A program made the position numbers and the translations under genes. Positions 2,171 to 27,023 of a stretch of DNA of 27,023 bases are shown one piece after another. The notes under the pieces were generated by a model that saw only the letters and a list, made by a program, of their open reading frames with translations, was not told where the DNA came from and did not search any database. This DNA comes from Amanita rubescens (lineage: Eukaryota > Basidiomycota > Agaricomycetes > Agaricales > Amanitaceae): contig WION01000635.1 in NCBI GenBank assembly GCA_015039365.1, positions 1 to 27,023 of the forward strand. The letters are read 5' to 3'. The first letter of the stretch is position 1; every line of letters starts with the position of its first letter.

Positions 2171-5100
2171 ATGACAGACATTGCTGGTTCATCTAGTAAG
2201 CATAATCTCATGTCTTAACCTGATCAAAATCTGAGATGTGTAGATGCGGATGAAATTGCTATACGCAGAGAGCAATACAAGTGCCCCCAGTTCCGTATTC
2301 TTGTCATAGGCAGGGCTAATGCAGGCAAGACTACAATCCTTGAGAAGGTTTGTCATGTAGCAAAGGGAACACAGCCAATGATCATATATGATAAGAGTGG
2401 TAAGTTTGACACTAAAGCCCAATCCTTATCCTCAGTGCCTTTAGGTAAAAAACTGGCACAGGATGAAACCCATGTGACACCTTCAAATGAGGTAAGTTGA
2501 TGGTTACTAATAAATATGCATATGCTTTCTGATGACACTGTATTAAATTATAAGAGAGGCCTGCATGATATTGAGCACCAGGTTACATATAAAGGAAGCA
2601 ATTTTATCTTTCATGACTCAAAAGGTTTTGAGTCTGGTGGGGCAGGGGAGTTAGAGTTGGTTTGGGACTTTGTTGAGAAGCGGTCTGCTGAAGCTAAGCT
2701 GAAGGATCAGCTGCATGCAATTTGGTATCTTTGACTCCAAGTACTTTGCAATAAATATGTAACTAACCTGTTTTTCATCAGGTACTGCATACCCATGGAT
2801 GATACTCGGCCTATTTTGCCAGCAGAACTTGAGTTCTTCAATAAAGGAACAGGGAAAGGTAAGGCAATCAATGTTCTCAATAAAGTACTACTTTGAAACC
2901 ATCTCCACAGTTCCACTGGTGGCTGTATTCACCAAATTTGATGGGCAAATGATCCAAGAATATGGAAAGTTAGATAACATTGTGGATGATGAGGTTAAGT
3001 GGAACAGGGCAAGGAAGAATGCTGAAATATCCTTTCAAAGAGTTTATCTTCCTAAAATCTTTAATACTGAACACCCTCCAAAAGCATATGTGCAATTGGA
3101 AGGTGAGAGTGGTGAACATACTCTGTTTCAAAAAGGAGCCTATGATTTTTAATAGATATGGATATACCAGAGAACAACTGTCCTGAGTTAACTGAGAAGA
3201 CTGCTAGTGCCATTGATGATGCCAGTTTACAAGAACTGTTTGTCTCAACACAAATGAACAATCTTGGTCTCTGTGTTAAATATGGACTTAAGTGAGCATC
3301 ATGCTAAGATGTCAGATTCAAATGTTTGAGTTTTCAGACATGTCTTTGCCCAGGAGAAAATCTCTCTAGGAGATGTTTTTATCATTGTCCTCAGCAAGTT
3401 TCCACATTATTGGGTATTTTTTACAAATAAATTCATCTAATATGAAAAGCTGAGTTGAAACAGCTTGACAGAGAAGTCAGTTTAATTTCTATGCAAAAAT
3501 GTGACAGAAAATCTTATTGAGAACTATCCAAGCATGATGTGAGTGCTGTGATTTATTTTCCTTCAATAAGGATGTGTGGCACTAATAGACAATGAGCAGG
3601 ATGTATGTTCACTTGATTTTGCTTGTAAGACTCATAACATGACATAATATTTTACCAAGCCACACAATGAAGTTGATGTGAGCAATATTATGACATTTCT
3701 ATGGCTATATCTCATGCCTAGAACAATAGTGGGCAAGTAAAATCAATAGTTTTAGTCTTCAATGAGTGCTGATTTTATGAGAATAGTTTGTGAGTCACTG
3801 CACATTTCTATTCAAGAAATCTCAATGTGTGAAATAGGAAGTGTGTAATATTAGACTTTTCATGTGTGATGAACTGACTATGATAAAGAAGGTAAATATA
3901 CATACTTTTGAGAAACAATTCAATCATATTTCATTCTACTTGTCCAATAGGCAGTGAGTGACAATAGTTCTTACCAGGTCTATGACATGTCCAAATGCAT
4001 CCTGCACAGATTGTCAGTGACACCACACTCTTGATGACAAGCCTTGAAGCAGTTCATCTACTGATTCTTCTCCCATGACTGGCAGATAGTATGTGACATG
4101 GCACTGCTGCAGTCTTTTAGATCATGACATGACAAATAGAATGTGGGGAGCAGAAGCATTTGCTGTAATCATCACATCTGAAATGTGGCCAACAGGTAGT
4201 AAGCAGCACTGGACCTATTGTTGTGGAGTAGGAGTCTCATCTCCTTTCTCTCATACTAGGAAGTGAGTGATAATGCATGATTATCTGTAGCAGGGTCTCA
4301 ACTAAGTTGCATGGGCAGGAAGTGAGTATAGTTCATGTCTCTTTGGAAAGTTGCAGTTTCATCATAAGGTCAACAGGAAGTGAGCAAACTTGAGAACATT
4401 TTTGAAAGCTGTCTTAACATATTGAGCCAACAGAGAGTGAGCAATTGAATTATTTCTGCTGTAAGCCACAGCAAAGACCATTGAATCATCAACAGAGTGT
4501 TTGTGACACTTTATTTGGGACCAGAAAATGTCATCTCATAGTATATCTTACATATGACCAATAGTGGGTGAGTCATATAGCACTTGATGGTGCCAACTTC
4601 ACACTCGTTATATGATCTCATTGGCTGGCCAACAGATTGTGAGTGCCACAGTAATATCCATTTGCTATTATGCCTCTTCTCAGGCCATGACCAACAGGAT
4701 GTGAGTGACCTTTTCCAGGCAGTTTTCATTACATCACTTCTCATGACCAACAGTATGTGAGTGGCAACCCAATTTTTGATTTACTGAGGAGTCTCATAAC
4801 TTAAACAGATTGGGAGTGACATTTGCATTTTATTCTCTGCCAGGTGGTCTGACATATGTATTTGGCTTATAGGGAGTGAGTGACCCCACACTTTCCTTTG
4901 CTCATCACATTTCATACCATGACCACCAGTATGTGAGTAGTAGCACCACTATTTTTCTTCCCAGAGCAGCTTCATCATAACTCATTTGTGACCAACAGGA
5001 TGTAGGTAACAGTATAGCCATTCTTAATTATGCAATCTCACAACACTACATCCAATCACTGACAGCATGTAAACAATGTTGTATGCTGCATGTCATCAAA

Positions 5101-7022
5101 TCTGATCTTATGGTCAACAGAAAGTAAGCAACACTGCCTTTTTGGAGTATTGTTGCATCTCATCCCATCATCAACAGTATGTGGGTGACATTGCTATCGC
5201 TTTCTATTTACTAGACAAGCTCACATTATTTGTGTTTGACAGTTGGTGAGTGATACAGGATTTGCAGTAACTCTTGTTAGTTATATATATTTACAGAGTG
5301 TGAGTAACAGCAGTCATTCTTTGAAAGCAATCTCATTCCACCCTATCCACATGTCCATCACCAACAGCATGTGAGTGAAATAATGTTTTTTACTAATAGT
5401 CCCAAACATCTCATTCCATGATTAATAGGAAGTGAGATTCTTTTAAGGCAATCTCATCACATCTCAATTAATAACCAACAGCATGTAAGTGACAGTGCAT
5501 TCTCTTTTATTCCAGGCAATCTCATCACACAATTCACAGATTGTAGGTCCCACTCACTTTTCTACCAAGCAGATTCATTTAGTACCTTTTATTTCATGAC
5601 CCCAGGATGTGGGTCACATTACAACTTTTCTTTGTAGGCACATAATCATGTATCTTCCCATAACAAATAGGGAGTGAGTGACACTGCATTATTCTTTCAC
5701 TCACCATATAATCACACATTAGAAAGTAAGTGACAAATCTTTTTCCACTGATTTTGTCATCCACAACTAATATAATGGTGGCCAATAGCAAGTAAGTCAT
5801 GTCCACTATTTAAACAAATTAGCACTCTCATGGAGTCATGCTGTATTTGCAGGATGTAAGTTATGCCCCATTTTCTTCAACTTGACAGTAATTTCTTGCA
5901 TTCAATAACAAATAGAAAGTGAGCAGCATTGGGTTCTAATTAGCCAAGGTGTCTCATTTATAACCAATAGAGAGTGAGTGATTCCAGTATCACACCAGGC
6001 AGCCTCTCCTCAGCCCACCCTGATGAATAGCAAGTGAGTGCATGTGACCTTTCAGTTTGTCTCACTCATTTCTTGACAAATAGCAAGTAAGTGACACTGC
6101 CATATTTTCAGGCAAGCACTCCAATATGTATTATCCCTTGTGACCAACAGTTTGTAAGTGACACTGCGATTTTTCTAGAACACTTGTCTCATGCACCCCC
6201 AATATCATTAGTTTGTGAGTGACAGCAAACCTTATGATCCACCTTAGGAAATTTATTACCATTAAATACAGAATGTGAGCAACAATATTTCATTTTGTAA
6301 CAAATTTACCATGGCAACAGAGCGTGAGTGGCATTGTACTTTACCACAGAGTATATTATCTTGATATGAATTGAAACTTTGAAAGGAAGTGAGTGAAGAT
6401 ACCTTTGCTTATTTAAAATTTTCAGCAATTCTAACATTTGTAGATTGTAAGATATATGTATAACACTTTCATTTTCCATTCTTTCTTCCTGACTGCATTT
6501 TCCAGGTATAAGAAACAATCATTATGATATACAAATAATCATCCTGATTTCTGTTTAGCTTGTATGTCCACTACTGAACTGGACTTGATAATTTCACACC
6601 TTTTGTCATCAGCCTGAACTTCTCTTACTATTTGGACATAATTCAGCAGAATTTTCAGCAACTGTAAGACTTATGTTTATTACTGTGGTTTTAGAGTCAT
6701 CAACTAATCCTGTTGTAAACAGCCTACTGCCTGCAAAATCTTAGTTTGTAATACATCCTTTTTCATTTGCTTTTTGGGGGACTAATGTTCCAAAGCAATC
6801 AATATTATTGCAAAACTGTCCTTTTGGATAATGAAGCCAATGGAGCCAGCTGAAGAGTCACTCACACAACCATTTGAGGAGTCAATAAAAAATGCTTTAG
6901 ACCAATTCAGAGGACAAGGATGTGTGAGGAAACTGGAGATTTCCATCACCTCAGAGTCTTTGCCTTCTAACCATCAAGATTTACTTGCATTCCTCTATGA
7001 TCAGACTACTCAGCTCATCTGA
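2171..7022 (+). CDS. P-loop G-domain protein split into about 62 exons, most of them single-codon microexons
   Basis: Ordinary 5' exons: 2171-2195, 2244-2399, 2445-2491, 2555-2724, 2782-2858, 2911-3102, 3156-3291 and 3338-3413. Together they are 879 nt in an unbroken frame. They encode a GTPase fold: P-loop GRANAGKT (residues 31-38), DSKG as the G3 motif (97-100) and TKFD as G4 (166-169), ending in FPHYW (about residue 293). Then come short exons at 3464-3475, 3533-3538, 3600-3602, 3660-3677 and 3730-3732. The microexon array follows, with a last microexon at 6559-6561. C-terminal exons are 6613-6663 (17 codons), 6723-6747 and 6796-7022, ending LYDQTTQLI and TGA. Phases agree throughout, giving a protein of about 453 aa. 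Basidiomycetes have many such G-domain (MMR_HSR1-like) proteins of unknown role. The G domain is sure. Exons 3464-3475 and 3533-3538 and inclusion of every microexon are inferred from splice signals alone. Base composition is more AT-rich than in the flanking genes. Confidence 0.8.
3539..6612 (+). repeat. Array of about 48 one-codon microexons separated by related short introns
   Basis: The unit is: acceptor (mostly CCAACAG or AATAG), three bases, then donor (mostly GTGAGTGAC or GTAAGTGAC), followed by T-rich sequence, a CTCAT-type branch site and the next acceptor. Starts of the three-base exons: 3600 GAT, 3730 TGG, 3787 TTT, 3838 GAA, 3889 AAG, 3951 GCA, 4010 ATT, 4090 TAT, 4140 AAT, 4196 GTA, 4260 GAA, 4319 GAA, 4377 GAA, 4434 AGA, 4496 AGT, 4565 TGG, 4636 ATT, 4698 GAT, 4754 TAT, 4809 ATT, 4873 GGA, 4930 TAT, 4999 GAT, 5066 CAT, 5121 AAA, 5178 TAT, 5243 TTG, 5297 AGT, 5368 CAT, 5429 GAA, 5482 CAT, 5540 ATT, 5606 GAT, 5671 GGA, 5723 AAA, 5789 CAA, 5853 GAT, 5916 AAA, 5971 AGA, 6031 CAA, 6084 CAA, 6151 TTT, 6212 TTT, 6272 AAT, 6321 AGC, 6386 GAA, 6444 ATT, 6559 CTT. 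A six-codon exon lies at 3660-3677. Introns are 46-77 nt except around 6505. Whether every unit is spliced in is not known. Confidence 0.75.
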
Positions 7023-7462: not shown

Positions 7463-7690
7463 CTTAATAACGAGCAGAGCCATGACTGTCAAGGATATCT
7501 ATTTTCAGTATATTGAGACTCGTGAAAGACAAGATTCAGACGTACCGCAGAGTCCGCTGTCAATAGCTATTTAAAGCACCCTTCAAATCAAACTACTAGG
7601 ATTATGGAATAAGTGGTGAGCCAACCATCGCAATAAACTCACCATCTCCGGAGTCAATGAACGCCAAGTTGATGAAAAAGCCGAGCGGGA
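7463..7690 (-). repeat. Right arm of the inverted duplication (partner 1-230)
   Basis: This is the reverse complement of the left arm; ends were judged by eye where the two sequences stop matching. It begins inside GC-richer DNA and its inner end coincides with the edge of the AT-rich GTPase locus. No target-site duplication was recognised next to either arm. Confidence 0.75.
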
Positions 7691-7712
7691 TCAGAGATAT
7701 TGCGACGTAACT
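7463..7712 (-). pseudogene. Mitochondrial carrier gene fragment, inverted copy of 1-230
   Basis: Read on the minus strand, this is the same carrier exon and intron as at 1-230. It starts YVAISLIPLGFFINLAFIDSGD, here split as YVAISLIPLG then FFINLAFIDSGD, followed by a GTGAGT donor and the same intron sequence. The copy here keeps the three bases missing from the left copy (FFIN-LAFID against FFIK-AFID), so it is nearer the intact form. Homology stops at about 7463, just after GGCTCTGCTCGTTATTAA, well before the remaining carrier exons. A splice acceptor for the exon may lie at about 7708-7712. Only one exon remains, so this is a fragment and not a gene. Confidence 0.75.
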
Positions 7713-7993
7713 CCCCAACCATTATCAGTAATGGGGAGGGAGAGGAGGCAGCTGAGGCGGGGCTAGAGCAATTCTCCGCCAAGTACGGTCTCCTGGTTCT
7801 CGAAGGTGTTGATGAGGACGTGGAGGGCCCCAATGCTATCATGCTAGACGAACTCATAATGTTGGCGCACGACGATCCGGTATGGAAGGAAGAGCTTAGA
7901 AGATACTTGCAAGAAGAGGAGAAAGAGAAAAAACAGATACAGAAGGAGCGTGCGGTGAGATTGGCTCACTGGCGGGAAGACGTGGCTGTTTAG
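7700..7993 (+). CDS. Hypothetical acidic/coiled ORF, possibly an exon remnant
   Basis: A 97-codon open frame encodes a charged protein with a helix-forming, Glu/Lys-rich end (EELRRYLQEEEKEKKQIQKE near residues 62-81) and no recognised domain. The minus-strand frame over the same bases is Ser/Pro-rich and looks less protein-like. The ORF start overlaps the end of the inverted carrier fragment, so its first residues are doubtful. It could be one exon of an otherwise lost gene. There is no homologue in the window, and I cannot assign a function. Confidence 0.3.
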   Translation: MRRNSPTIISNGEGEEAAEAGLEQFSAKYGLLVLEGVDEDVEGPNAIMLDELIMLAHDDPVWKEELRRYLQEEEKEKKQIQKERAVRLAHWREDVAV

Positions 7994-9175
7994 CCCGCAC
8001 CTCGAGATCCAGTTAACAATCTCCTGTGCCCATTCTTTGCGCTCAGGGCAATCGAATTGGCCTGTCGTGTAGTAATGAATTTGGGGCATATGCACCCTCT
8101 CGCCCCAGATCGATTATATATCTCTTGACGAGGAAAAAGACGGCTTAGCCTCATAAACCTTTCAATGCACGCTCCAAGGTCAACCACCAGTGTTGTCCTG
8201 ACTCATAATGCATGCCAGGGCCAGGGAATTCCGTTTCTAGTGCTCACTGCTAATTGTCGGACGTGACGTAGGACACCAACCGAGGGATATATCAAATCAA
8301 CCTGGCCCAAGGAGAGAAGGAGCAACTTAGGAACAGTTGGGCCGGGCCTGGGGGGTCGGTAGAACTATGGTAGTCATTCATCTATCGCGATTCGCACGTT
8401 GCGAAGACGTTTTCAACACTTTGGTCAGGAACGGTCCTTCTCGCTGTTACGTTACACCCTTAGTCCTCTTTATATCGTCGTTTTCTCCCCCTCCTCGCCT
8501 GTGTCTCGTCTCCGGTCGATCACCCCATCAGCAGCTTTTACAAGAACCTGAAAAACAAGGAGAAGGGAGCAGAGCGAAAGCCCTGGCGGTTTCGCAGACA
8601 GTCGAAGAAATATCGGCGCGAGAGTGCAAAGACACTGGCTAACTCGAGACACATGGTGTCGATGAGAGAGTGGATCAGTGGCCTCCTCATCCCAATTCTC
8701 GAGCAACTCACTGCGTGTTCATTTAAACTATCAGATTTACTTCATAATGCATTCTTGACAGCGCATTAAACAACCGCCCAAAGCGGCCTCAGCCTTACAT
8801 GAAAAAGACGAGACCAACAGACGAAGACGAAGCAGACTCCAGCAGACTCCAGAGGCTGGTTCTGCGTCCCAAACACCTGGTCAAACAACTTGAAGGTAAC
8901 TACGACCGCCCCCTCACGGCGAAAACGATCCTCGTCGTCGCCTCGAGCCTTCTGGTGTCTGCGATCGCTAATTGCGCTAAATAGGATGTTCAGGAATCTT
9001 TTTTATATTAAATACAATTATTTCTATGTGCTACGTCTCCCCGTTTGCGATCGCGGCTTGGATCCGGCCCTGATGCATTTCCCTATCATGTATATTACTA
9101 TATATCTTGAAGTGAAATTAACTTTGAATGCTTGCTCACGCGGTCACGGATTGGCTTCAATGACACGACGTGAAA
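7994..9175. other. Gene-free stretch, nothing recognised
   Basis: About 1.2 kb with only short open frames on both strands (for example 8337-8642 and 8799-8984, plus), none with a known motif or a partner exon that I could support. An 11-base direct tandem duplication (GCAGACTCCA-type) sits near 8834-8856. The part next to 9175 should contain the 3' UTR of the minus-strand gene A, created where the gene was truncated. Confidence 0.4.
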
Positions 9176-12100
9176 CTATTTTTCATGCCCGGCCGCTGCA
9201 TCGTGGATCGTCCTGACACCAGCAGCCCTCATCAGATTGGCGTAATTCCGGAGAAAACCTTTCACACTGTGCATGTCTCCAATGTCTTGCGGATCGTTGA
9301 TGAGGGTAGAGGCAGAATGCCATGCCCAGGGATCGGAATCAGGGTTGTCGACATTGAGGAATACTGGTTTCTGGTTTTCGTTCTTGATGACAGCAAGATT
9401 TTTTTTTGCGTTCTCGTTCAACCAGTTGTAGGTCGCTTTGAGGTCCGAAAGCAATGCCGAACGGTGACCATGCATTTTACCAAGCTCAGTGAGGGCTCTA
9501 AGATGTTTCACCTTTTTTAAATTAATGAGAGGCCGTAGCGACAAACGAAAGAATGATGCTTACCACTTCTTTTCCAGTTGGCTTGCCCAAATTTCGATAA
9601 GTGCCACACAAAGTGGGATTGGGTTGGGGTTCGACACAACCTCTTTGGCTCCAACATATAGCTTCGTAATCGGCAAGAGTAATTTTGCTCGGTGAGAGTA
9701 TATCATGTTGCATGTATTTCCTTATGTCCATCCCCTCATAACCCTTCCGGCTGGCAGAGCCTCTGGGAATAAACTTGAGTAGGTCCAGTTCACGGCATAG
9801 ATCAACGTCGCTTGGATTGAGGGAAAGCTTGTTGAAATATTCATATAATACTTCACTCCTCCTACGTTTGTTCCCGTCGCCCGGTCTGTCCTCGCCTTCG
9901 TCATCATCACCGTCTTCATCTTCGTCTTCGTCATCTTCATCTTCGCCTTCACCAACGCCCTCGTCTTCATCAACTGCACTCGCCCATTCTAAGAGCATAT
10001 TTTCGTCGTCATCGCTATCTTCGTCATCATCATCCTCGTCATCACCGTCACCGTCATCTTCATCTTCGTCATCACCAATGTCTTCGTCGTCTTCGTCTTC
10101 ATCAAATGCATTCGCACATTCGATGAACATGGTAAGATTAAGTCGATGCGTCAGATTCAAGTCATACTCTCCCAACGGCTCCGCAACGTCTTGGAAGCCG
10201 TTATGCAGGAGACGTTCGGGAGTCACTTTAAAAGCTGCTAAAAAGAGCTCATGGTGTTCGAATAAGTTCTCGGCTGGGCTAAGAACCCCTTCTTCATTTG
10301 GTAATAATAGCGAATACCCGGTGACCCTCTCGAGATTCAGAAAGCAGGTTATGAATTGCTTGTACTCCACTTCATGGGCCGGTGAATAGAGAATAGTGCC
10401 ATGTGAAATACACAGAAGCTCGGTGATGTCTTTCGCACTACACCCTTCTTTCTTGATACCCTGCATCCCGATCTCCCAGCTGATGACTGGATAATCGGTA
10501 AAAGGCAACAGAACGTGAGATGGCATAGAAACGGGAAGGACGATAGCGTCGTCCAGGGCGCCAAGGTGAGGGGATTTGGCACGTTGTTGAATGGACCAGA
10601 CGGGCAGCTTACAAGCGACATCCGTCAAGTTTGGTGGCGTGGAACTGAATTTTAGCCGAACCCAGCGGCCAAGCTCTTCGTGATCGCTTGATCTGAGGCT
10701 CAAGATCTCCTTGAGCCCTTTCGCCTCGTCTTTCTGCATGTATTCCAAGAAGCTTTCATAGATCGCCAATCCTTCCTTCACCTCTGTGATAAGTGAGGCA
10801 TATTTTCTAAGGATGATTATCATTCCAAGTTTCTGAAGGATACTATAGTCAAAGTCTTCTCCACTTCTTTCTGCATCGACGATTGAAACAGAAAGCTCGG
10901 AGATGCCTCTCAAAGAGATGAAGTAGTGTGGATCCAATGTTGGAATTAAAGGAATATGCGAGATCATCTTTGGCGCAATGTCCAGCTTAGCGTCCCAGAA
11001 AGAAGTGATCCATACGCGGTCCGCTTCAGCCCCAAGAAATTCCGATGCCGGCTTGATGCGTTCCTGTACGAATTCTACCATTCCCGCTTCACTTAGATGC
11101 GATACATTCACCCCGAGTTTCAGGAGGCCCTTGGGTACGTCGAAATCCCTGTGTACGAGACGATTGGCCGGGAAGATTGTATAGGCAGCAGCTAGTTTTG
11201 GCTCTACCACGTAATTGGTCTTGCTATATGACATTTGGATCTTCGCCCAGGAACCGTCCTCGAGCGGGATCAGTGAAAGCCCATCCAACGATACTGCGCC
11301 GCGTGATAGGTACCACAATAGGGTATTGATTTCATGCATGCTCATCCATTGGTTGGGTGGATTGGTATGCTCTAAAAGCGTTCGGACGAACGCGGCATCC
11401 AGCGAACATAACTGCGCCTTCACAGCATATTCGAACAAATGGCTGGGTAGCAACGATATTTTCAAAGGTCGAGTGGTAGATAGGACTTTAGACAGGGAGG
11501 CCTTGAGTGCTTTGAATTTATCTGCAGTTTCAGAATATAATATAACCTCGCCCGGGTTTAGAAAAGATTTATCATGGTATTTACTGGCGAAAACGCGTCT
11601 TGGAGTCTTCTTGAGGATATCGGAACTCCAAAAGGCATTCATAAAGATCTGGCTCGGAACATTAGCATCCCGGCTTTGTGTCCCAGGCCACCACAGAATA
11701 TTGGAGCCCTGAACCTGCAGTAACCTTTCAAGCAAGCCAAGGTATAGCCGCGGAATTTCGGACGACAACAACCATAGGTTATATTGTGATTCTATCCCAG
11801 TCCGGTCATTGTTGATGCGTATGTTTCGCCTCTCCTGTTCTAGGATCAGCGGAGCAGAAATGTGAGCTGGAATATTTGTGGTGATGGGCAGGGGTAAAGC
11901 ACAAAACAAGTTGTATTTCGACTTCTGAACTAGGTCACAATCCAGTTTTGCAGCGACACGCATCGGTAAAAGATGGTGCATGTCGTATCTGTCTGCGAGC
12001 TCCGCCTTGAAAGCGTCAGGGATGTTGACGTCCATCGTGACGATAAGCCATTTGGGTAATCGAAGGTTCCCTGATTTAAAAGTCACCGTTTCAGATTTGA

Positions 12101-15100
12101 GTGAATCGTCGGGTGTAAAATCGTCAGATATTCTGGTACTTTCGATGACGCGGAGAGCTTTAAAATCGTCACTCTGCCGCTTTTGCACCTCGATCCGATT
12201 GAGCCCTGTGAACAGAAGCGATTTGTACGCCACTTTATCGAACTCTCCAATAAACATCTCCTCGACCTTTTCTATGCTCCAGGGAATTGGTAATATAGGA
12301 TCATGGCTTGAATGCGATTCATTCCTAAGCGGCAGCCTGAACAACGTCTGGGAAATGGTTAGCACAGCAGAAGTCCTGGAAGGGATGATGGTACTAACCC
12401 CTTGGTACGATTCCGTGGAGAAAATATCAAAACCAAATAGTCCATTCAATGGCTTAAGATGATCGGCATAAAATCTGAAGCGGGAATCAAAATGGGAAAA
12501 ACGATCCCTTAACAGCTCTTACTTTTTCACACTTTGTAAGGGTAGAAGAAGCGAATGTCTCCCGCAGAATGATAAGTTGCGCTCTGAAGGGCTCATGAAA
12601 AGGACGTGACCCCCCGAAACAATCATGACAAACTGGGTAGGGTATATTAGCCTTCGGTATATCTGCCACGCCGCTTCGTACCTCCGTAAAGTGAAACATT
12701 GAGAGTGCACCTAGTCCAAAGTGACCTATTACACTGGTCCTCCCCCTTTTTCCGCCGATACCTGTCTGCAATATTCCTCTGAAATCTTTCGGAGAAAAGA
12801 TTCCGTCGTTGTGTACAACCAGTGATGCACCCTGAAAAACCGCTAGTCCTTGCGACAGAAGATGCTCGCTTGGGCCTTCCTGATCATCTATAAGAATGCT
12901 AAATCGTTTAGCACCTGCGTCTGATGCATTGGCAATGAACTCCGTGAAGAATTGAGTCGGTTCATATTGCCTCAAAGTGTTGCGAATGATGGTGATAGGC
13001 TTTCCTCCCAAGTCGACGCTACCCTCCACATCGTCTAGCAACGTTGGTTTTATTCCAATCTTCTCCGCAAGTTTTTCGCTGATAAGATGATGAGCGGTGT
13101 TCATCCTTCCGCCGTCAAAGTTAATCCCCCCTCTTTGATAACAAACACCAGCAGGCAAAGGCACGAGGTCACCGGTGTCTATCGGAATCAACAGAGAGGC
13201 CCGCTCTTCATCAGTCATGGAGTCAGGTAACGTTTCCAATAATTGCACTGCTTGCTCGACAACAGTTAGATCCGTTGTTGGTTTTTCGCGCAAACCACGT
13301 AGCTCGCTTGTGATCACCGGTATCGAAGGCCTGATTAGATTGTCAAATGAATCCGTTTCTCATTGCAAAAGAAACGTACCGCTCATGACACCCCATCTTC
13401 AGCAAGAACGAAAATACTTGTCCCTCTGCCTGCGAGAAGCTGATCTCATAGAAGTAGCCTGCGCTTGGATTATTAACAAACACGGAACGAGAGGGTGACA
13501 CTAATGTGCCAGACTCTGTAGGCACCCACGGCCGTCCAGCGATAACGGATTGGAGTGCTTTCAGATCTGCATCTTGGAGCTGGCGAATTGCTAGCTCTTT
13601 TATAATCTCGCGAATTTTGCGGTATTGCACGGCAGAACTCGGACGTCCCAGAACACGATCTAATTGGTTCAAAAGAACGTCGAAAGGAAGAGGCTTGTCC
13701 CAGTTTAATAGCGCCCGGAAAGAAGGTGTAATTGGAATAGTATGGTCGAGAGTGTTTAGGACTTCGTCGAACAAGTCAGTATCCCGGCGTTTGCTATTGA
13801 TACAGTTGTTGGAGCTGACAAGACCAGCTCGTGTCGGTAACCAGCGCAAGGAGTGGTCGATAGAAAGATCGGCACAAACGAAGCTTGGGTGATTGACGAG
13901 AGAAAGTAAAGAACGTGCGACGGTGAGCGCGTCAACTGAGGTGTGATTTTCTGAGATGTATGAAATTCGTTCTTGCACAATGTCTAAAGACAAGGACGAC
14001 TTCATCATTCCCATTTTCCGAAGGCCATCCAGTATTGTGCGATCGTAGTCGTCCTCCACAATTGGAATGAGCCTGCTGCTGGAAACCGCGGGGAAAAGAT
14101 CTTTAAGCCGTGACTCAGGATCGACAACCTCCATCGGCGATTGCAAGCCGCCGTCTGATGAACGGATGAACTGTGTCTTTCGGAGCGATGATACAATGCT
14201 ATCTGTCAACCGGTGTTTTCGCACGATGCGGGAGATGAACGAGGCTTGCAGATGCTTTGGTTGGGTAGAGAATTGACCGAGGGCAAGCAACAGGATGTCT
14301 TCATCCTTGAAAATGGGCAATTTAAGTGCCTTCCACAAAGAACACGATGGGTTGGTAATGCAGGACTTGTCTAAGAAATCGATCTTATCAATCAAAGGGA
14401 CAAGCGACGTAGGCGAGATTCCTTTGATATTAAGGCTGTCGATTGCACGCCACTTCACAGGTGCATTAGGTTCGATTAGAGGTTGAGAGACGGGGAAAAC
14501 TGGGAGTTGCTTCAACTTGGCCAAATTTTCGGTAGAAAGTGATTTGTAAGAAGTAGAAATATGGTCGAGCATAGACTTTGCTTCATCATCGCTAAGGGGC
14601 TGCAATGCCGCCAAGTCGATAGCCGCCAAGAAATGATTCATATCATTGGTTTCTTTGATTACTCCGTGATGATTTAGGAACTGAACCACCGTATTCGGAA
14701 GCACGGAACTGAGAAAGGGAAGTCCCAGTTTCTCAAACGATGGTAGATCTGATGCCCGGAACACGGGAGACGAGAGAAGCTGCGGGCCTTTGGACGTCGG
14801 AATGAGACGAAGCACAGAGCTGCATCTGAGGAGCACCATTACCGGATCACGGTGTTGCCATTTTTCTAACCACGTCCAAAACTTGGCCAATCGCTGCTTG
14901 CTGAGCGGTTGAGACTCGCTTATCAAGTAGGCAACGACAGAAGGTGGAGATAGCAGATCAATATTGGCTTGGGTCGCGCACTTTTCCCGTACTAACGCCG
15001 CCACTGCAGGTTGCAGCTGATCAAGAGGTATAGCATCGCCCGCTGATTCTCTGAACATATCGACTTCATCGGAGGTTAGGGCGATGTGGTATGAAGTTGC

Positions 15101-16946
15101 TGTTTTCCTGTTGCCAAGGGAGATATACGATCCACCTCGGAGAGTGGGGAAAAGGGGAAGGCCATATACGCTGCTAAGGTCCTTGTCCGAGAGGAAGTAC
15201 TCGCATAAGATCTTCTTTTGGTTCTGAGACAAGCCGTCAAATCCCACAGGGACCAAGCTGCGGTTCTTAATCTGGTCTCGAGCAGCGCGCGGAGTCAACT
15301 TGGTAATTGAGTCGTCAAGGAACTGCATGTGGGTTTGAGGCAGTTGGACCAATGTTAGACCAACCTGGGCCAAAGGAATAAGCACTTCCGAATGAACCAG
15401 GTCTTTAGCCACGACAAGGGAAGACTTCAAGTCAACATAAGTCGTCATATCCGTCTCAGACATTTTCGGCCAGATCGCTAAACCGGGTTGGGTTGCGAAC
15501 TTCAACGTCGCTTGGAGGATATTCCGCCAGTATATGCCATCGCCAGACAATATTGACGAACAGCATGGAGGCCAAGAACTGAAAATATCCTTGCATACAG
15601 TGTCCTCGGCCAAAGTTTTCAAAAGACAACTCCAAGCGTGGGGAATGTAGCAATCGAATAGCAGCCTATTCCATTTAACTAACACACTAAATAAATGCTT
15701 TCAACTTCAGATTGCGATAAAAGAAGATGCATGCATACTCGTTTTCAGATCCGGCTGCAATTGCGGTCTCGTTTCCGTTGCGCAAGCCCTGTCTTGACGA
15801 AGTTACTGCAAACAATGCATGTATATGTATGGGGAAACCCGTCTTGGACGGGAGCGGCAAGAACGTGAAGAGGCGACCAGCGGTGTACCCGTCAGAAAAC
15901 AATGGATAAGCGATGCGCACGTCAGGGCTTAACTTGTGTTTTTCGAATGTGCGATTCGTAGCATTGATAAACTTGCGACCCTTGCTGCTAACCTGAGCTG
16001 AGAGGCGGGACTTTGCCTCCTTTTCTGGATTCCGTGTCTGAATAATCCGCCAAGAAAACTTCTCGTCGCCGTTGGATAAGACCGAGTCATAGATGGAAAG
16101 CGGAGAGTCTGTGCTTTGTCGTCCACTGATTTTCATCGATTTGGTCCATGTAGATAGGTGCGTCTTATTTGCGTCATGAACCTCCCATAATTCAATCGCC
16201 CTGAGATTATTGAGGAATAAAAGAGAAATGTTTAATTCTTCAGCGGCATAGTCCCTGATCATCTGGTCAAGCTCTTCCACGAGTACGATGCGGTCGCTGA
16301 GTTTACTTGGTGACGACCGAAGTGGCAATCTGATGACAGTTCCGGGGAAAGAGGAAGTCTCGAAGATATCAAAAAAATCAAAACATTCAGGATAGTCTGT
16401 TTCCATAAATTTTTGGTAGTCAATTCGTTCACCGCCGGAATTGATAGGATCAAGAATGGCAAACGAGGTCCCGGAAAGGATCTGAGGTTCGTCGGTGATC
16501 TATATGTGTTTCAGAGTGGGTGGGGAGGAGCAGAATCGAGTGATGTACATGATAACAAGCTCTGAACCCTATGCCGTATTTGCCTATTTTACTACAGAAG
16601 AGGTTAGCGTTGGCTCAGCAAAACTAGACGATCTTATCTTACGAGGTATCTGCTCTTTTGGATGAGTCATGAATGGTTCGGATAGCCGTCCAATCCTCTT
16701 CGAGGAACTGAGAATCGTTGTATGCCATTAGCGCAGGGTCATCCCCCATGTCAAGAACAAAAATCTATCATGGGCATTGTTCAGTGTATGTTTCATGAAC
16801 GGTATAGCACAAACCTGCTTCGTGGCCCTTGCATCATCCGAATTCTGTAACAGTTCTCGAAAGATAGATGCAGAGAAGGGGTAATCATGGAGAATTGCTC
16901 TGATTGCAGGGACGGGACCAACAGTTTCATAGAAACTGCCGTTCAT
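9176..16946 (-). CDS. Sacsin-like protein with two GHKL ATPase modules, BTB region lost (gene A)
   Basis: Exons on the minus strand: 16946-16815, 16764-16643, 16591-16549, 16499-15739, 15686-13380, 13330-12682, 12632-12523, 12474-12399, 12347-9564 and 9511-9176. They total 7320 nt (2439 aa) with no stop or phase conflict. The first Bergerat ATPase shows N-box ELLQNSDDA (residues 31-39), AYNDSQF (58-64) and glycine box KIGKYGIGF (86-94). The second, about residue 1240 onward, shows FFTEFIANASDAGA, LVVHNDGIFS and IGHFGLGALSMFHFTE. The E-N-D residues expected for Mg-ATP binding are present in both. Sacsin-type proteins are thought to act as large chaperone-like ATPases; the role of the fungal members is unknown. 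The start ATG is fixed by alignment with gene B. The C-terminus stops at GVRTIHDAAAGHEK, where homology to gene B ends, so the BTB-like region is gone. The penultimate exon carries a long acidic insert. Confidence 0.9.
9888..10105 (-). repeat. Asp/Glu low-complexity tract within gene A
   Basis: Between ECANAF and KRRRSEVLY, gene A has 78 residues that are mostly Asp and Glu, where gene B has 14. The DNA is an impure GAT/GAC/GAA/GAG trinucleotide tract (ATC/GTC/TTC on the plus strand). A second, degraded copy of the preceding motif (LLEWASAVDEDE against FIECANAFDEDE) lies in the middle, so the tract grew by duplicating a block that included the motif as well as by triplet slippage. The plus-strand Ser-rich open frame at 9775-10389 is its antisense shadow. 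Confidence 0.85.
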
Positions 16947-17389
16947 GTTGCAGGCTGATGTTGTAAAGTGAAGCCTTCCACATATATGTATTACATAGTA
17001 GGCTTCCCCTGGCGGCAATCACGGTGTCTGCGCCTTGCCATCGCCTCGATGCATTTCACCTGCCAAAGGCACTGACAGAAGCGTACCTCGTGTTGTTCAA
17101 ACAAACACAAACATTCGTTCAAGTATACCGAGTAACCGACTTCTCCACCTACAGGTTGCACAATGAAACAAGGGCTTTTTATAATGGATCCCTATTCTGT
17201 TGGGGGTTTTAGATTGAAAGCTTTTCGATCCCCAGTTCAGTCTCGCGGCCGCATGTTATAATTATCAGAGTTTGATGACTTGTTTCCCGTTTTGCATAAT
17301 GGCTGACAGTGAGCGGTGATGTAGCGAATACCACGGCAAGGTGACATATATACCGATGGAATACCCTTTTTCCAACTTCAGCCTACACA
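16947..17389. promoter_or_regulatory. Shared upstream region of the head-to-head sacsin-like genes
   Basis: Only 443 bp separate the start codons of genes A (minus) and B (plus), so both promoters must lie here or overlap the genes. For gene B, CATATATACC at about 17345-17354 is TATA-like, some 40 bases before the ATG. For gene A, the minus strand reads TATAAAAAGCCC around 17180-17169 and has a second TATA-like ACATATATG near 16980-16988. A CCACCTACAGGTTGCACAAT segment at about 17145-17164 is unexplained. Co-regulation is an inference from the arrangement. Confidence 0.5.
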
Positions 17390-20300
17390 ATGAACAGCGA
17401 TTTTGGTGAAAGCGTCAGTCCCGTCGCTGCAATCCAAGCGATCCTGCATGACTGCCCCTTCTCTGCAAGTATCCTTCGAGAATTGCTGCAGAACTCAGAT
17501 GATGCAAGAGCTACGAAGCAGGTCTGTGCTGCACTGCCCAGGAGCCATCCGTTTATCTTGAAAGCCATAGATTTTTGTTCTCGACATGGGAAAAGACCCT
17601 GCATTAATAGCGTATAATGATTCTCAGTTTCAGGAAGAAGATTGGAAAGCGATCCAAACCATCCACAAGTCGTCCAAGAGAGAAGATACCTCGTACGATC
17701 TTTGACTCCCGCGTTCGACTATTGTTAACTTCGACTTTTTCAGTAAAATAGGCAAATACGGCGTAGGCTTTAGAGCTTGTTATCATGTATGCCGGTCAAA
17801 AGTTTGGCTCGTCATCACCTACTCTGAAACGCATCTAGGTCACGGATAAACCTCAAATCCTTTCCGGGTCATCGTTTGCTATTCTCGACCCCATCAGTTC
17901 CGGCGGCACGAAAATTGACTATGATAGCTTCAAAAATTTTTCAGACCATCGCAAACATTTTGATTTTTTCCCCAACTTGTCCGCATCTTCTTCTTTTCCT
18001 GGAACCGTCATAAGATTACCGCTTCGGTCAGCGTCGAGCGAACTGAGCAAGCGCGTCGTACGCGTATCAGAGCTCGATCAGATGATCAAGGATTATATCA
18101 CCCAAGAGTTGAACATTTCTCTCCTCTTCCTCGATAACCTCAGAACCATCGAAATTTGGAAGGTTCAAGGCACTAACAAAACGTGCTTAGCTAGGTGGAC
18201 CAAATCCGAGAAGAAGACCAAACGTCAAAGCAAAGAATCATCTCTTTTCTTTTACGATTCAGTCCTGTCTGATGGCCGCGCAGACTTCTCTTGGCGGATT
18301 ATTCAGACCCAGAATGCAGCAGATGATGCCAGGTCTCATCTCGCGAAAAAGTTTGGCGGTGACACTGTGAATCACGTATTCGAAAGACACAAATTAAGCC
18401 CTGGCGTCCGCATTGCCCATCCACTCTTTACTGATGAGAACATCTCTGGTCGCCTCTTCACGTTCTTGCCGCTCCCCTCTAAGACGGGTTTTCCTGTGCA
18501 TATACATGCGTTATTCGCATTAACATCATCAAGACAAGGCTTGCGCAACCAATACGATACAGGGATTGTAGCCGGATCTGACAACGAGTGCGCATGCATC
18601 TTACTTTTACCGCCATCTGGAGCTGAAAGCTTTTATTAAGCGTGTTAATTAAATGGAATAGTCTGTTGTTCGATTACTATATTCCCCAAGCTTGGAGCCA
18701 TCTTCTGAAAACTTTGGCCGAAGATGCTGCGTGCAAAGATATTATCAGTTCTTGGCCTCCCTATAGCTTGTCAATAATGGCTGGCGATGGCCTGTATTGG
18801 CAAAATATCCTCCAGGCGACATTGAATTTTGCCATCAAATCAGGTTTAGCAATTTGGCCGAAAGTATCCGATACGAATACAACAAGATATGTCGATTTGA
18901 CGCCTTCCCTTGTCGTCGCTACAGGCGAGGTTGATCCGGATGTACTTATCGCTTTGTCCCGGGTTGGTCTAACGTTGGTTCAACTGCCCAAAACCCATAT
19001 GCAGTTCCTCGACGACTCTATTACCAAGTTGACTCCGCATGTTGCCCGGGACCAAATCAGGCATCGTAGCCTGGGATTCAACGATTTGTCTCAGGACCAA
19101 AAGAGGAAGCTATGTGACTACTTTCTCTCGGACAAGGACTTTAGCAGCATATATGGCCTCCCCCTTTTCCCCACCATCGACGGACCGTATGTTTCTCTTG
19201 ATAAGAGGGGAGCAACGAATCGACGCTACATCGCCCTAGCGACTGATGAGGTTGATGTGTTCAGAACATTAGCGGGCGATGCTATATCTCTAGATGATTC
19301 ACCAAGCGAAGTGGCGGCGTTGGTACGGGAGAAGGGGATGACTCAGGCCAATATCGATCTCCTTTCCCCACCATCTGTCGTTGCTTACTTGTTACGTGAG
19401 CTTTCACCGCTCAGTGACCAGCGATTGGCGAAGTTTTGGACTTGGCTGGAGAAATGGCAACAACGTGATCAAGTAATGGCACTCCTAAAGTCCAACACCG
19501 TGCTTCATCTCGTCCCGACGTCGAAAGGCCCGCAGCTTGTCTCATCTCCTGCATTTCTGGCCCCATGTAATCAGCTATTTGAGAAGCTAGGACTTGCCTT
19601 CGTCAGCTCTGTACTTCCGAGTACGGTGGTTCAGTTTCTGAATAACCACGGGGTTGTTAAAGATACTAATGATATGAACCATTTTTTGGCGGCTATCAAA
19701 TTGGCTGCGTTGCGGCCTCTCAGCGATGGTGAACCAAAGTCGGTGTTCGACCATATCTCGACTTATTACAGGTCCCTTTCTAGTGACAACCTGGTCAAGT
19801 TGAAGAAGCTCCCCGTCTTTCCCGTCTTGAATCGGAATGTGCAGGCTCCAGTTAAACATGATAGTTCTGTGAAGTGGCAGGCCATCCACGGCCTTAACGT
19901 CAAGGGGATCTCGCCCATGTCACTTATTCCTTTGACAGACGACATAAACTTCCTTGACAAATCCTGCTTTAGCGACCCCTCAAGCTCTTTGATCAAGGCA
20001 CTACAAATACCCATCCTTAGCGACGAAGATGTCTTGTTACTAGCCCTCAGTCAATTCTCTTCACAACCAAAGCCCCTTCAAGCTTCATTCATCTCCTACA
20101 TCAGACAGAATCACAGGTGGACAAAGAACATTTTATCAGTCCTTCAAGAGACACGGTTCATCCGGTCATCCAACGGTGCCTTACAATCACCAATCGACGT
20201 CATTGATCCCAACTCAGGGCTTAAAAGTCTTTTTCTTGTGGCTTCCCGCGGCCGACTCATCCCAATTATAGAGGACAACCACGACCGTCAGATACTTGAT

Positions 20301-23300
20301 GATCTTCGGAATCTGGAGATGATAAAGGCATGCTTGTCTTCGGATATAGTGCAAGAAAGAATTGCGTATATCTCGGCAAATCGCTCCTCACCCGACACGT
20401 TAATCATCGCTCGGTCTTTGGTTTCCCTCATGAATGACTCAAGCTTCTCTTGTGCTACTAGTCTTTCCATTGACCAATCCTTGCACTGGTTGCCAACCCA
20501 GACTCGTCTCGTTAGCTCAAGAGAATGCATTGACTATGGACGCCGGGACGCTGACCTATTTGACGAAGTTCTCTGTACCCTTGATGAAACCATCTCGATT
20601 ACACCCTCTTTCCGGTCTCTCTTGGGGTGGGACAAGCCTCTTCCTTTCAACATAATTACGGAGCAATTGAATCGTGTTCTGGGACAGCCAGATTCTGATG
20701 CGCAGTATCGCAAAGTTAGTGAGATTATCAGGGAATTATCGGGTCGCCAGGTTTTAGATAGAGACATCAAAGCTATAGAGGAAGCCGCCGCCGAACGGCC
20801 TTGGGTACCTACCAAATCTGGCGTGTTAGTGCCGCCTTCACAGGCTGTGTTCACTGGCACATTCAATGCGAGTAGCTTCCATGAAATTTGTTTCTCCAAG
20901 GCACAAACGCCAATATATCAGTTTCTCCTGAGGATGGGGTGTAGCGAGCGGTATGTTTTATGTAAATAGGAGCAAAATAGTTTATCTGACAATCTAGCCA
21001 GACCTTCGGCATTGGCAATCATAATGGAACTTGAGGCTCTACGCAAGAAAGTAGGAACGGATGACACCATTATTCAGCAAGCGGTGCAATTGTTGGAAAT
21101 GTTACCTGATATGATAACAACCGAAGAACGGGCTTCCCTTTTAGTCCCTACAGAAGGAGGAGACCTCGTGCCAATATCCACCGGCGTATATTATTACAAG
21201 GGACGGATCAACGTAGACGGCGGAAAGATCATCGCTCATTACTTTATTAGTGAAAAGCTTGCACAGAAGATTGGGATACCATACTTGGGCACCGAGGAAG
21301 CTGAGATTGTAATCGATTTTGGAGGAAACCCCACCACCCTCATTCGCAACATCCTAACGCAATATGAACCGAACCAATTTTTCACAGAATTCATCGCGAA
21401 TGCATCCGACGCCGGTGCTAAACTATTCAACATTCTTGTAGACGATCATGTGGGCCCCACTGAGCATCTCGTCTCGGAAAGTCTAGCAGCCTTTCAGAAT
21501 GCGTCGCTGGTGGTACACAACAACGGGGTCTTTTCTGCACGAGACTTCAATGGAATATTACACACGGGTACAGGCGCAAAGAGAGGGGAGATGGGTAAAA
21601 TCGGTCGCTTCGGATTAGGTGCACTTTCAATGTTTCACTTTACAGAGGTAAGAAGCAGTACATGGTTGACGTTCTGAAGGTCTGAAGACTGACCTTTTTT
21701 TACACAGTTGGCCATGATCGTTTCGGGGGATCGCGTCCTTTTCCTAAGCCCGTCAAAAAGAACATCGTTTGGCGGGAAACACTCATTTTTCTGTCCTTTA
21801 CAGAACATGAAAATGTAACTAGTCTTTAGAGGACATGTTTGCTATGTTGATTCCCTTTTCAGATTATATGCCGACCATCTTAAGACGTTAGACGGGTTAT
21901 TTGGTTTTGATCTTTCCTCTACTGAATCGTATCCAGGGGTTAGCGCCATTCCTTTGAGGTCTTTCCTTGTGCTGATTATTTTCTAGACATTGTTCAGGCT
22001 CCCGCTTCGGAATAAAACTGATCCAAGCCAATATCCTGTATCAACAACGCCCTGGACTACAACAAAGGTCGAAGGGATTCTCCTCGCGGAGTTCGATAAA
22101 GTGGCGTACAAATCACTGCTGTTCACGGGGCTCAGTCGCATCGAGGTGTTTAGACGGCAGAATGGCCCCGACATCAAAACTCTTCGCGTCATCGAAAGTA
22201 CTCGAGTACCACATAGTTCTATGGGCGACAAGACATTCAAATGGGAAACGGTAACTTTTAAACCAGAAAACTTGGGATTACCCAAATGGCTTATCGTCAC
22301 AACGGACGTCAATATTCCCGACAATTTCAAGGCAGAGCTTAAAAACAAATATGACATGCATCACCTTTTGCCGATACGCATCGCCGTGACGCTGGAAAGT
22401 GACCATTTGAAAAAGAAGACGGAATATAACCTGTTTTGCACTTTACCGTTGCCCGTCGTCACGCCCGTACTAGCCCACATCTCTGCTCCACTGATCTTGG
22501 AACAGGAGAGGCGAAACGTACGAGTCAACGGCGCAGAATCCGAATATAACCGATGGTTGTTGTCGTCTGAGCTTCCGTGCTCGTACCTCTACTTGCTCGA
22601 AAAAATATTGCAGATCCGGGGCAGTAATATTCCGTGGTTACCCGGGATGCATAGCAACAGTGTCAATTCGCCCAGCCATATTTTCATGGGCGGCTTTTGG
22701 AGTTCCCAAATCCTCCGGAAGAGTTCCAGACGCGTTTTTTCCAGTAAATACAATCCTGGATCTTTCCTGAGCCCAAATGACGCTGTGCTATTTGCGCGAG
22801 AGGCACCGGAATACAGGAAATGCCAATTTACACTTCCTGAAGTCCTATCTGCTACTCGACCTCCGAATCTCGTGGAGCTCCCTGGTCATCTATTCTCTTT
22901 CGCTAAAAATAAGGCATCTTTACGGATCGTCGATACTGCCTTCCTCAAGCCACTTTTGGAGCGTGTTGATCCGCGTAGCCAATGGTTGAAAGTGGATGCA
23001 ATTGACGCATTATTGCATTACCTCTCACCGATACCGAGGTCACCGATGGTATCGTTGGATATGCTACCACTAATCCCGCTTGAGGACGGTTCCTGTGCGA
23101 AGATTGAACATCGCGCGACGACCCAGACAAAGTATTATGTCGTAGAGCCGGAGCAAATCGCTGCCTACAACATCTTTCCACCCAATCGTCTCATACACAG
23201 GAAGGCTCGCGAGACTAAAACCCTGTTGATAAACGCAGGTAATGTATTGCCTCTGGATGATGCTGGGATATCCAGACTTGTGGAAGAATGTATTGCGCCT

Positions 23301-25640: not shown

Positions 25641-25779
25641 ACGATTCCCAAGTCATAGCTCTGACTGCGTAATTCTTCGAATGTTTATCACGAGTGGCCC
25701 AGGTTTTATTTATATCGTGAATGATCGTGATCACGAACTTGTTATAACCCGACACGACAACTTACTATGTGCTAAACCA

Positions 25780-25920
25780 ATGACAGTGCGATTGTAGATC
25801 CAAACGAATGGTGTTGGAATGTTGTGGGACAATTGCTACCGCTGTCCAGTCCATTTAAATCACTTCTAGTTTCTGAAATATTATTATAATTGACGTGGTT
25901 CAAAACATACAGTTATATGT
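25780..25920 (+). pseudogene. Short mitochondrial carrier gene fragment, third copy
   Basis: The segment matches 565-735 of the decayed carrier in the same orientation: an intron end (GTGCGATTGTAG, here CAGTGCGATTGTAG), then TNGVGMLWDN-like coding sequence and the following intron. It has several internal deletions (about 30 bases lost between GCTACCGCTGT and TTAAATCAC). It lies between the 3' end of gene B and the Myb/SANT gene and cannot encode a carrier. Confidence 0.75.
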
Positions 25921-25929
25921 GCTAGTTGC

Positions 25930-26975
25930 TCACAGCTCAGCTTGGAGCATCTCAATCTCATTACGGAACGGGAGGAGCTCCAAACGTATCCATGCACGAC
26001 GAAGGACTGAATTTTGCTGTGCAATATAAGCGGATGCCTTGTTTGGTTGGTCAGTTACAAGTCGTATAAGGTATAATCGTTCAGCTGGGGTGAGGCTGTC
26101 CTCTGTCCTCTGTGCTCCATCTATCTTGGCCACAGCCGCTTGGATCGCGCCTTGCGTTGTTGCTTCGACTGACTTGACCGTTGCATCAACTAGGTGATCG
26201 AGAGCAGCTTGAACAGTAGCCATGGTTGGGGTGGAGGTGCCAAGAAAAGGGGCCATGCTTGCGACTGTCGCAGAAAAGGTGCTCAGTAGTGATGCCAACG
26301 AGGACTCGAACCTGGGGTCAAACCCAGAGCTAGAGAAGTAATCCTCATCCTCATCAGATGCTGGCTCAGATTCAGATGAAAAGTCGTTGGCGCTGGATGG
26401 TGTCATCGATAAAGGAGAGAATGCAAATCGGCCAGTAGCAGTGGATGGTGCTATCAAGTCATCAAGCTTGGAAAGTAAAGGCCACGACTTGTTTCTGATC
26501 ACGGATAGATGTGGTTTATCCTATGACCAAGTAAGCGTCAGCCTGGGAAGCAAGAGGGTAGGCCACAATTTACCTTTGGGTGGGCGGTCATGTACTGCTC
26601 AAAAACAGCGAACTCTGCTGGGGTACTAAAAAAAGCGCCACCCTTGGTAGCATCCCAGCCTACGCCCGAACTCTTGCGAAAACGATTGACAGCGGTCCAT
26701 TGAGCCTTGATCTAGGACACACCCTTGACTATCAGAGATGATCCGCGGTATGAAATTGTCAAACATACGTTGTTCCATTTGTTTCTCGTATTGGTGGCAT
26801 CCTTAGCCCCTCCCTCGGTGCGCATTGCTTCTAGATGAACAGCAGCCTTCCGAAACAATCGAGGTTTAAACTCTTCAATAGTGGCTCGGGATCGATACAG
26901 ATAATCGACGAGAGCAGTAATGTCGTCATCAGTCCACGATGCTGATGAAGGTGCTGAAGCAGGATGTGTTTCCAT
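25930..26975 (-). CDS. Myb/SANT-like domain protein
   Basis: Exons on the minus strand: 26975-26769 (69 codons), 26711-26574 (46 codons) and 26520-25930 (197 codons with stop), giving 311 aa, phase 0 at both introns. Residues 14 to about 130 look like a Myb/SANT-like DNA-binding domain (Myb_DNA-bind_3 type): WTDDDITALVDYL, NTRNKWNNIKAQWTAVNRFR, GVGWDATKG, FEQYMTAHPKDKPHLSV and RNKSWPLLSKLDDL, with the spaced tryptophans typical of the family. The rest is a Ser/Glu/Asp-rich linker (SESEPASDEDEDYFSSSGFD) and a helical tail ending EMLQAEL. In basidiomycetes such proteins are common and often accompany or descend from Harbinger-type transposons, but no transposase gene is in the window. Nuclear DNA binding is the likely role; the target is unknown. 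Confidence 0.8.
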
Positions 26976-27023
26976 GTAGTTTAGATGAAGGAGCGCAGCA
27001 GCGTCTCTAATCGCTGATCACCG
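26976..27023 (-). promoter_or_regulatory. Upstream edge of the Myb/SANT-like gene
   Basis: The last 48 bases lie immediately 5' of the Myb/SANT start codon on the minus strand. Too little is present to identify a promoter or a transposon terminus. The segment ends inside unknown sequence. Confidence 0.2.

Follow-up and report, generated by a model that had tools for sequence, protein, structure and literature searches.

Arrays of putative one-codon exons in a GTPase gene family of Amanita rubescens

Exons of one to three nucleotides (nt) have been described before: there are reports of a 1-nt exon in Arabidopsis (PMC4674806) and another in CYP621A of Fusarium (PMC12940212), of a 3-bp exon in homothorax of Drosophila (PMC7392893) and of a fungal gene with two exons of 3 nt (PMC5639578), and functional microexons are stated to have been previously undescribed in filamentous fungi (PMC11121469). 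The micro-exon genes (MEGs) of schistosomes contain very small symmetrical exons, encode fast-evolving proteins and give rise to variants by alternative splicing (PMC4350168), the bicycle genes of aphids form a rapidly evolving family that was discovered through gene structure (PMC9168663), introners are introns that occur in a genome in many near-identical copies (PMC9860276), and in recursive splicing one splicing step creates the next donor (PMC6224609). Here we analyze a 27,023-nt stretch of Amanita rubescens DNA (the window, in which positions are counted unless a locus is named; it is contig C583 of the 75.7-Mb assembly covered by all genome searches), which carries a gene of a P-loop GTPase. 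As far as can be judged from sequence, an array in this gene probably represents about 45 one-codon exons that would be joined into one loop of the protein, and a part of the related arrays of the same genome (in subfamily A, see below) would be young and diversifying. A preliminary description of the window had proposed a run of about 48 single-codon exons at 3600–6561, read in phase 0 as one insert of a fungal G-domain gene; this interpretation is supported, and the run itself was confirmed with 46 units in our model, for which about 45 is the safer statement.

The ultra-short exons of Arabidopsis, Fusarium and Drosophila are isolated cases as far as the reports show, whereas the Amanita ones stand in consecutive arrays. 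The feature shared with the MEGs is the series of very small symmetrical exons (1,205 of the 1,237 exons found in 27 sequences by a chain search allowing 1–30 nt were 3 nt long, and phase 0 is present on both flanks in the window), but most of the coding sequence lies outside the small exons (these make up 46–47 of the approximately 452 codons in the window model), the carrier is a mushroom GTPase, each exon is a single codon, about 45 of them follow in a row, and the introns of the young arrays are near-identical while their codons vary. Aphid bicycle genes have many microexons, and we know of no one-codon exon run in them. Unlike introners, the copies of the array intron belong, among the matches listed, to a single gene family, where they stand in tandem 3 nt apart, and while recursive splicing re-splices the recursive-splicing exon, the Amanita one-codon exons would remain part of the product if, as we infer, they are joined stepwise. 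The openly accessible literature that was searched held no report of consecutive single-codon exons, only of single 1–3-nt exons and of micro-exon genes, in agreement with the earlier remark that no described array of such length was known in a fungus. The layout of one residue per exon may be categorically new, though a stricter reader may take it as an extreme variant of micro-exon genes.

Between 3414 and 6612 the pattern AG-N3-GT occurs 64 times, 41 times with strong sites (YAG acceptor and GTRNG donor), as against 0 or 1 strong sites at every other exon length of 0–15 nt, and the control region at 7501–27023 has 0–4 strong sites at any exon length. The recurrence of AG, three bases and GT with good splice sites, pointed out previously, was thereby borne out, while as a criterion for units the pattern held only partly: the TGG unit at 3730, whose donor is GC, falls outside it, and some matches are false overlapping ones (AG-TGA-GTG four bases later). 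In the model, 46 one-codon units occupy 3730–6561; strong sites are present in 40, and the spacing of the 46 is 49–76 nt except for two gaps of 115 and 119. The joined codons are free of stops in phase 0, as against 3 and 9 stops in phases 1 and 2, respectively, and phase 0 suits both flanks, where FPHYW ends at 3413 and PELLLLFG begins at 6613. The statements that the three bases never form a stop, that the two other phases are closed and that both flanking exons demand phase 0 were all found to be correct. Spliced alignment of the window was carried out with four guides, namely L035 and P0001, P0002 and P0003 (L-numbers denote loci of the same genome and P-numbers database proteins), by which between 36 and 44 of the 46 units were rendered as one-codon exons (44 with L035 in the first run, 36–42 in a repeat). 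The guides of the first run carried the window's own tail; in the repeat without the tail, scores of 276, 270, 273 and 237 were obtained against shuffle maxima of 234, 226, 241 and 213 (20 shuffles each). The window thus scored above all 20 shuffles with each of the four guides, with a weaker result for identity (see below).

The gene model is intact from the ATG at 2171 to the TGA ending at 7022 and comprises about 452 codons (Table 1). Its G-domain part (293 codons, from ATG to FPHYW) belongs to the P-loop GTPases: the GxxxxGK[ST] motif is present as GRANAGKT, and the model of the related P0001 matches GTPase structures. The preliminary exon list stood for the single-codon run and had missed the 12-, 6- and 18-nt exons on its N side; with these counted, the insert between the G domain and the C-terminal helical domain reaches about 59 residues, close to the 60 expected earlier. 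The 45 units in 3787–6561 were placed by pattern positions, spacings, frames and the spliced alignment, in which the guides skip or merge some of them. The exon at 6613–6663 aligns to PELFSVFGEHSTFFSAT of P0002 and P0003, while the four-guide spliced alignment is no evidence for this exon because the guides contained that stretch. The intron behind the conserved W codon is of the GC-AG kind (GCAAGT) in the window (3730) as well as in L035 (1651). Beside the probable decayed unit at 4809, which lies in a 116-nt intron, a second and less clear possible fossil unit was noticed near 6506 in a 112-nt intron.

Table 1. Features of the GTPase gene in the window (for one-codon units the residue and the first base of the codon are given)
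Feature	Position	Strand	Basis
G-domain exons 1–4	2171–2195, 2244–2399, 2445–2491, 2555–2724	+	homologue-supported model
G-domain exons 5–6	2782–2858, 2911–3102	+	homologue-supported model
G-domain exons 7–8	3156–3291, 3338–3413	+	read from sequence and tblastn pieces
12-nt exon LDRE, N arm of insert	3464–3475	+	spliced alignment, 4/4 guides
6-nt exon HD, N arm	3533–3538	+	2/4 guides
One-codon exon GAT (D)	3600–3602	+	2/4 guides; other 2/4 place GAT at 3571–3573
18-nt exon PHNEVD, N arm	3660–3677	+	4/4 guides
One-codon exon TGG (W), first of 46-unit run	3730–3732	+	4/4 guides; same in L035
One-codon units	F3787 E3838 K3889 A3951 I4010 I4086 N4140 V4196 E4260 E4319 E4377	+	
One-codon units	R4434 S4496 W4565 I4636 D4698 Y4754 G4873 Y4930 D4999 H5066 K5121	+	
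One-codon units	Y5178 L5243 S5297 H5368 E5429 H5482 I5540 D5606 G5671 K5723 Q5789	+	
One-codon units	D5853 K5916 R5971 Q6031 Q6084 F6151 F6212 N6272 S6321 E6386 I6444 L6559	+	
ATT, probable decayed unit	4809–4811	+	sequence: CAG before, GGGAGT after, suggesting a lost GT donor at 4812
Exon PELLLLFGHNSAEFSAT, C side of insert	6613–6663	+	sequence and phase
Exon PTACKILV plus one base	6723–6747	+	sequence, homologue alignment
Final exon with C-terminal helical domain and TGA stop at 7020–7022	6796–7022	+	sequence, homologue alignment

Similar arrays are present elsewhere in the genome. The unit CAACAG GAT GTGAGTGAC had 66 exact matches and the 21-base unit core with the codon left free had 1,059, with 0 matches for either of the backwards controls. 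In 20 loci, chosen for holding one exact unit, 1,110 matches were found at an exon length of 3 nt and 38–86 for any single other length in the range 0–24; since the loci were selected by the unit, the presence of arrays in 20/20 gives no estimate for the family. A chance origin of the pattern was rejected on the exon-length specificity and the backwards controls. When seven close copies (L024, L018, L017, L025, L027, L011 and L040, the last a copy of L021) were dropped from the chain search, 866 of 890 exons were 3 nt long, and these 866 non-redundant codons included no stop, while 55.8 were expected from the positional base frequencies (P about 9e-26); with L040 kept and the other six dropped, the corresponding values were 912/938, 0 and 56.4. 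In L014, 71 one-codon exons stood in one chain, and most array introns (860/943) measured 45–79 nt. In 18 of the 20 loci and in the window, at least one array lay on the same strand behind G-domain exons with FPH[FY]W at their end, and L010 and L027 had no G-domain match within the stretch examined. Most of the 13 arrays inspected on the 3′ side were followed by exons such as HELFSMF, PTDCQVLV and IIIIAKLSFWI, and unrelated sequence was found there in L011 and at the second array of L010. For the tail exons, at least 150 matches were counted in the genome, copies on separate contigs included; the array-bearing GTPase genes are a large family in this genome. Near-identical pairs on separate contigs or far apart were L009/L017, L013/L018, L014/L024, L010/L027 and L021/L040, which are perhaps uncollapsed haplotypes or recent segmental duplications.

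A protein search with the window composite returned 994 relatives, and 136 of them were examined. Fifteen JGI proteins reach FPHxW: nine continue for 74–169 residues with an array-like peptide (P0001, P0002, P0003, P0008, P0015, P0018, P0062, P0133 and P0135; WF is present in all except P0008), five stop 16–26 residues later (P0019, P0032, P0087, P0110 and P0134), and P0077 continues, but with different sequence. P0001 has 478 amino acids and needs 1,434 nt, while its contig is 1,486 nt long, which leaves no room for introns, so that it appears to be a cDNA. With phase-0 introns allowed, P0001 and L035 were aligned at 58/74 identical residues across 55 introns with a score of 422, as compared with at most 33 identities and a score of 228 in 12 shuffles of the middle of P0001. 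P0015 and P0062 align to all of the 12 subfamily-A loci tested, with 20–28 identities of 36–37, and 24/24 scores beat their own six shuffles; the exons follow each other in the manner of FPHFW-VDRE-E-MANKQLSETQ-W-F-E-Q-G-K-K-E-T-D-R-E-I-K-Y... In the search of the A. rubescens genome with P0001 and P0062 no identical locus was found, the best pieces among the matches listed being 85–90% identical, and the two proteins probably come from relatives. The protein matches thus show that the codon order of such arrays is a coding order and are no read of the window gene, because the relatives are other loci.

The arrays can be sorted into subfamilies. Those of subfamily A mostly begin with W-F-x-x-G-K-K and many end with K-I-C or L-K-I; subfamily B includes the window, L011, L015, L009, L017 and L035, with F-E or F-R near the start and an E-I-L end in several. 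Array ends are conserved as peptides between paralogues and the centre of subfamily A is hypervariable. In the window all introns of the chain (27/27) differ from one another, and Tandem Repeats Finder reported no repeat in this array, probably due to the diverged units. Comparison of the window with its close copy L011 revealed differences at 0/78 codon bases (26 units), 11/1,774 intron bases and 41/4,029 bases outside. In a part of subfamily A, one 62-nt intron is the modal one in L014 (41 copies), L021 (23), L026 (20), L036 (11), L037 (41) and L016 (4), the upstream regions of which are 87–99% identical mutually, and the introns of other subfamily-A arrays (L012, L013, L028 and others) are all different. 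In L037 the introns are nearly all identical and the codons are mostly CAA, CTA and CGA, with the middle base alone varying.

The near-identical introns surround diverse codons. Among 1,287 within-array pairs of same-length introns at least 99% identical (mean divergence 0.0), the codon was shared in 15.9%; this comparison was made without L024, L018, L017, L025, L027 and the window and with L011 kept. In L014, the 62-nt introns (68 of 70) departed from the modal sequence at 36/4,216 bases (0.85%), while the codons departed from the positional mode at 117/213 (55%). An 18-unit block is duplicated in this array, codon agreement being 42% of 53 pairs at shift 18 and 14% as the mean over shifts. 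In units 28–43, hand-picked as the clearest stretch within the 53 pairs, 12 of 16 codons were unchanged and the rest were CGA>CAA, GAT>TAT, TAT>CGA and CGA>TTT, two of these four being whole-codon replacements. Because identical introns align out of register, blastn comparison of paralogues was misleading (for example L021/L026), and codon strings with shuffles were used. The upstream region of L025 is 99.3% identical to that of L026 and 98.1% to that of L021, and its codon order is that of L021 (33/37 in common order) as against 11 in common with L026 (shuffle mean 10.7). L026 and L037, whose upstream regions are 99.0% identical, have 10 codons in common order (shuffle mean 9.7). P0002 and P0003 are identical at 279/292 positions of the G part, 23/29 of the N arm and 89/96 of the C part, compared with 9/25 aligned positions of the centre, which is inside the range of 300 shuffles. 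When array centres were compared as proteins, L021/L026 was not clearly beyond chance in either direction (18/300 shuffles score as well), and 298/300 and 238/300 shuffles scored as well for L021/L037 and L026/L037, respectively.

The same 62-nt modal intron in six loci could also mean that the arrays consist of introner-like elements, that is, a mobile intron inserted repeatedly into an older plain exon, whose codons would then be the original sequence; some introners are reported to have target duplications of 3–9 bp (PMC9860276), and a 3-bp one would add one codon in frame. This origin is rather improbable. The exact intron copies among the matches listed (of 410) fall on 11 contigs, all with loci of the GTPase family; random insertion would yield mixed exon lengths instead of the nearly uniform 3 nt; and the 18-unit block of L014 resembles a tandem duplication. 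Equal neighbouring codons, predicted by target duplication, numbered 74/639 compared with 59.3 ± 6.8 in 1,000 shuffles (maximum 81). As a sign of very recent duplication this is a weak excess.

We propose that the spliceosome would join the units singly into a peptide loop leading from the G domain to the C-terminal helical domain. Splicing would be intron-defined and stepwise, because a 3-nt exon cannot hold the 3′-site complex and U1 together, and the order would probably be 5′ to 3′, each intron removal lengthening the upstream exon by one residue and freeing the next donor. Arrays of the window type, with introns all different and codons unchanged between copies, would be old and conserved, while those subfamily-A arrays in which several loci share a 62-nt intron present in tens of copies per array would be young and active. 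In the latter, single codons may be gained, lost, swapped or exchanged when identical introns undergo unequal crossing-over or gene conversion, and their difference may be preserved by diversifying selection. As a tentative extension, which we hold for somewhat doubtful, the array might be a generator of diversity at codon resolution, where the constant introns serve as recombination tracts or spacers, the codons are movable and array recombination in the course of evolution rewrites a recognition loop residue by residue, perhaps with in-frame skipping at the RNA level too. An alternative in which splicing itself is the switchboard, partial skipping of symmetric exons producing many loop variants per gene, would fit the nearly identical donors and acceptors of subfamily A and the fact that skipping of any 3-nt exon preserves the frame; it is nevertheless unlikely, since short intron definition favours neighbouring sites.

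The product of the stepwise joining would be a disordered, fast-evolving loop suited to recognition, for example in self/non-self discrimination or in defence. In the predicted structure of P0001, residues 316–359, inside the array-coded part, mostly have a predicted local distance difference test score (pLDDT) below 50, and the C-arm helix (361–382) is mostly confident. The first Foldseek row for this model was the dynamin-like BDLP. Immunity-related GTPases (IRG; Irga6/IIGP1, Irgb6, Irgb10 and GM4951) matched it with a root-mean-square deviation of 6.6–8.3 and 10–13% identity, and scores nearly as high were reached by one chain from a tubulin-cofactor complex (13.4), by EngB/YsxC (12.9) and by septins (12.5). 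In Pfam no family was above its cut-off for the four proteins searched; MMR_HSR1 and Arf remained below theirs and none was obtained for P0015. A second look was taken with VIA-align, where absence excludes no family.

Several observations weigh against the reading of the arrays as diversifying one-codon exons. The window–guide identities (27, 25 and 36) exceed the shuffle maxima (25, 22 and 30) slightly, and with P0003 the 21 identities are under the 23 of the best shuffle. K3889 was drawn by one of the four guides, and no guide drew H5066 as one codon, so that both follow from the splice pattern. In 803/866 codons the third base is A or T, C-ending codons being rare and NNG few; this base is also base −1 of each donor. 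The transcript status of the JGI contigs is deduced from their short size, and the recognition function is suggested by variability and a distant resemblance of fold only. Recombination alone would make the codons as uniform as the introns, therefore strong selection or a codon-targeted process would be required.

P0026, an annotated A. rubescens protein, also stands against the one-codon reading, as it passes from FPHYW directly to the tail with no array peptide; it is a gene prediction, yet it may also represent an array-free gene or a skipping isoform. Likewise, of the 12 examined gene models that carry the name A. rubescens and extend to FPHxW, 11 stop 0–50 residues later. Both would agree with a long intron or satellite with decoy splice sites, removed as a whole and holding the codon units by coincidence. 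This explanation is highly improbable and was rejected on the missing stops (0/866 instead of the 55.8 expected), the peptides conserved at both array ends and the contiguous proteins that hold array peptides residue by residue. The 3-nt exon length with few exceptions, the absence of stops, the conserved order and the match of contiguous proteins are seen directly in the sequences. Several gene models of A. brunnescens also stop soon past FPHxW, which is only a hint on arrays in other Amanita species.

A last point against concerns L037, in the array of which (2820–5942 of the locus) 5/49 main-chain exons are 2 or 4 nt long and the frame is broken. L037 is either a pseudogene or bears consensus errors in a nearly perfect repeat, and errors of this kind could hit the variable codons and inflate the hypervariability of the youngest arrays. 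It might accordingly be supposed that the variable codons of near-identical arrays are largely assembly or polishing errors and that true diversity is lower; the odd lengths in L037 indeed fall on codons, mostly CAA, CTA or CGA. We consider this improbable, as the codons of L014 and L024, which lie on separate contigs, are identical at 141/141 bases compared, though the two are perhaps copies of one molecule, the separate proteins P0002 and P0003 show the same contrast of centre and flanks, and arrays with diverged introns (window, L035) also have varied codons.

If the one-codon reading holds, dozens of consecutive 3-nt exons would be an extreme test of intron-defined splicing, and the arrays would offer a natural system for stepwise splicing. 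It would also explain why annotation truncates the genes of this family after the G domain. Near-identical introns with diverse codons suggest a new route to hypervariable peptides, and the codon register of an array could be read as a record, resolved to single residues, of how codons were duplicated, swapped and exchanged.

Two features of the surrounding sequence were also noted. Inverted repeats at 17–229 and 7464–7672, with arms of 109, 48 and 30 nt that are 90–96% complementary, flank the GTPase gene together with about 1.9 kb upstream of it and look like copies of a neighbour-gene fragment in inverted position around the gene. Farther downstream, 9522–16499 (− strand) and 17839–25233 (+ strand) hold two similar, divergent sets of long open frames, both with FGLGALSMFHFTEVRS, which presumably resemble large ATPase/chaperone-like proteins of the sacsin kind.

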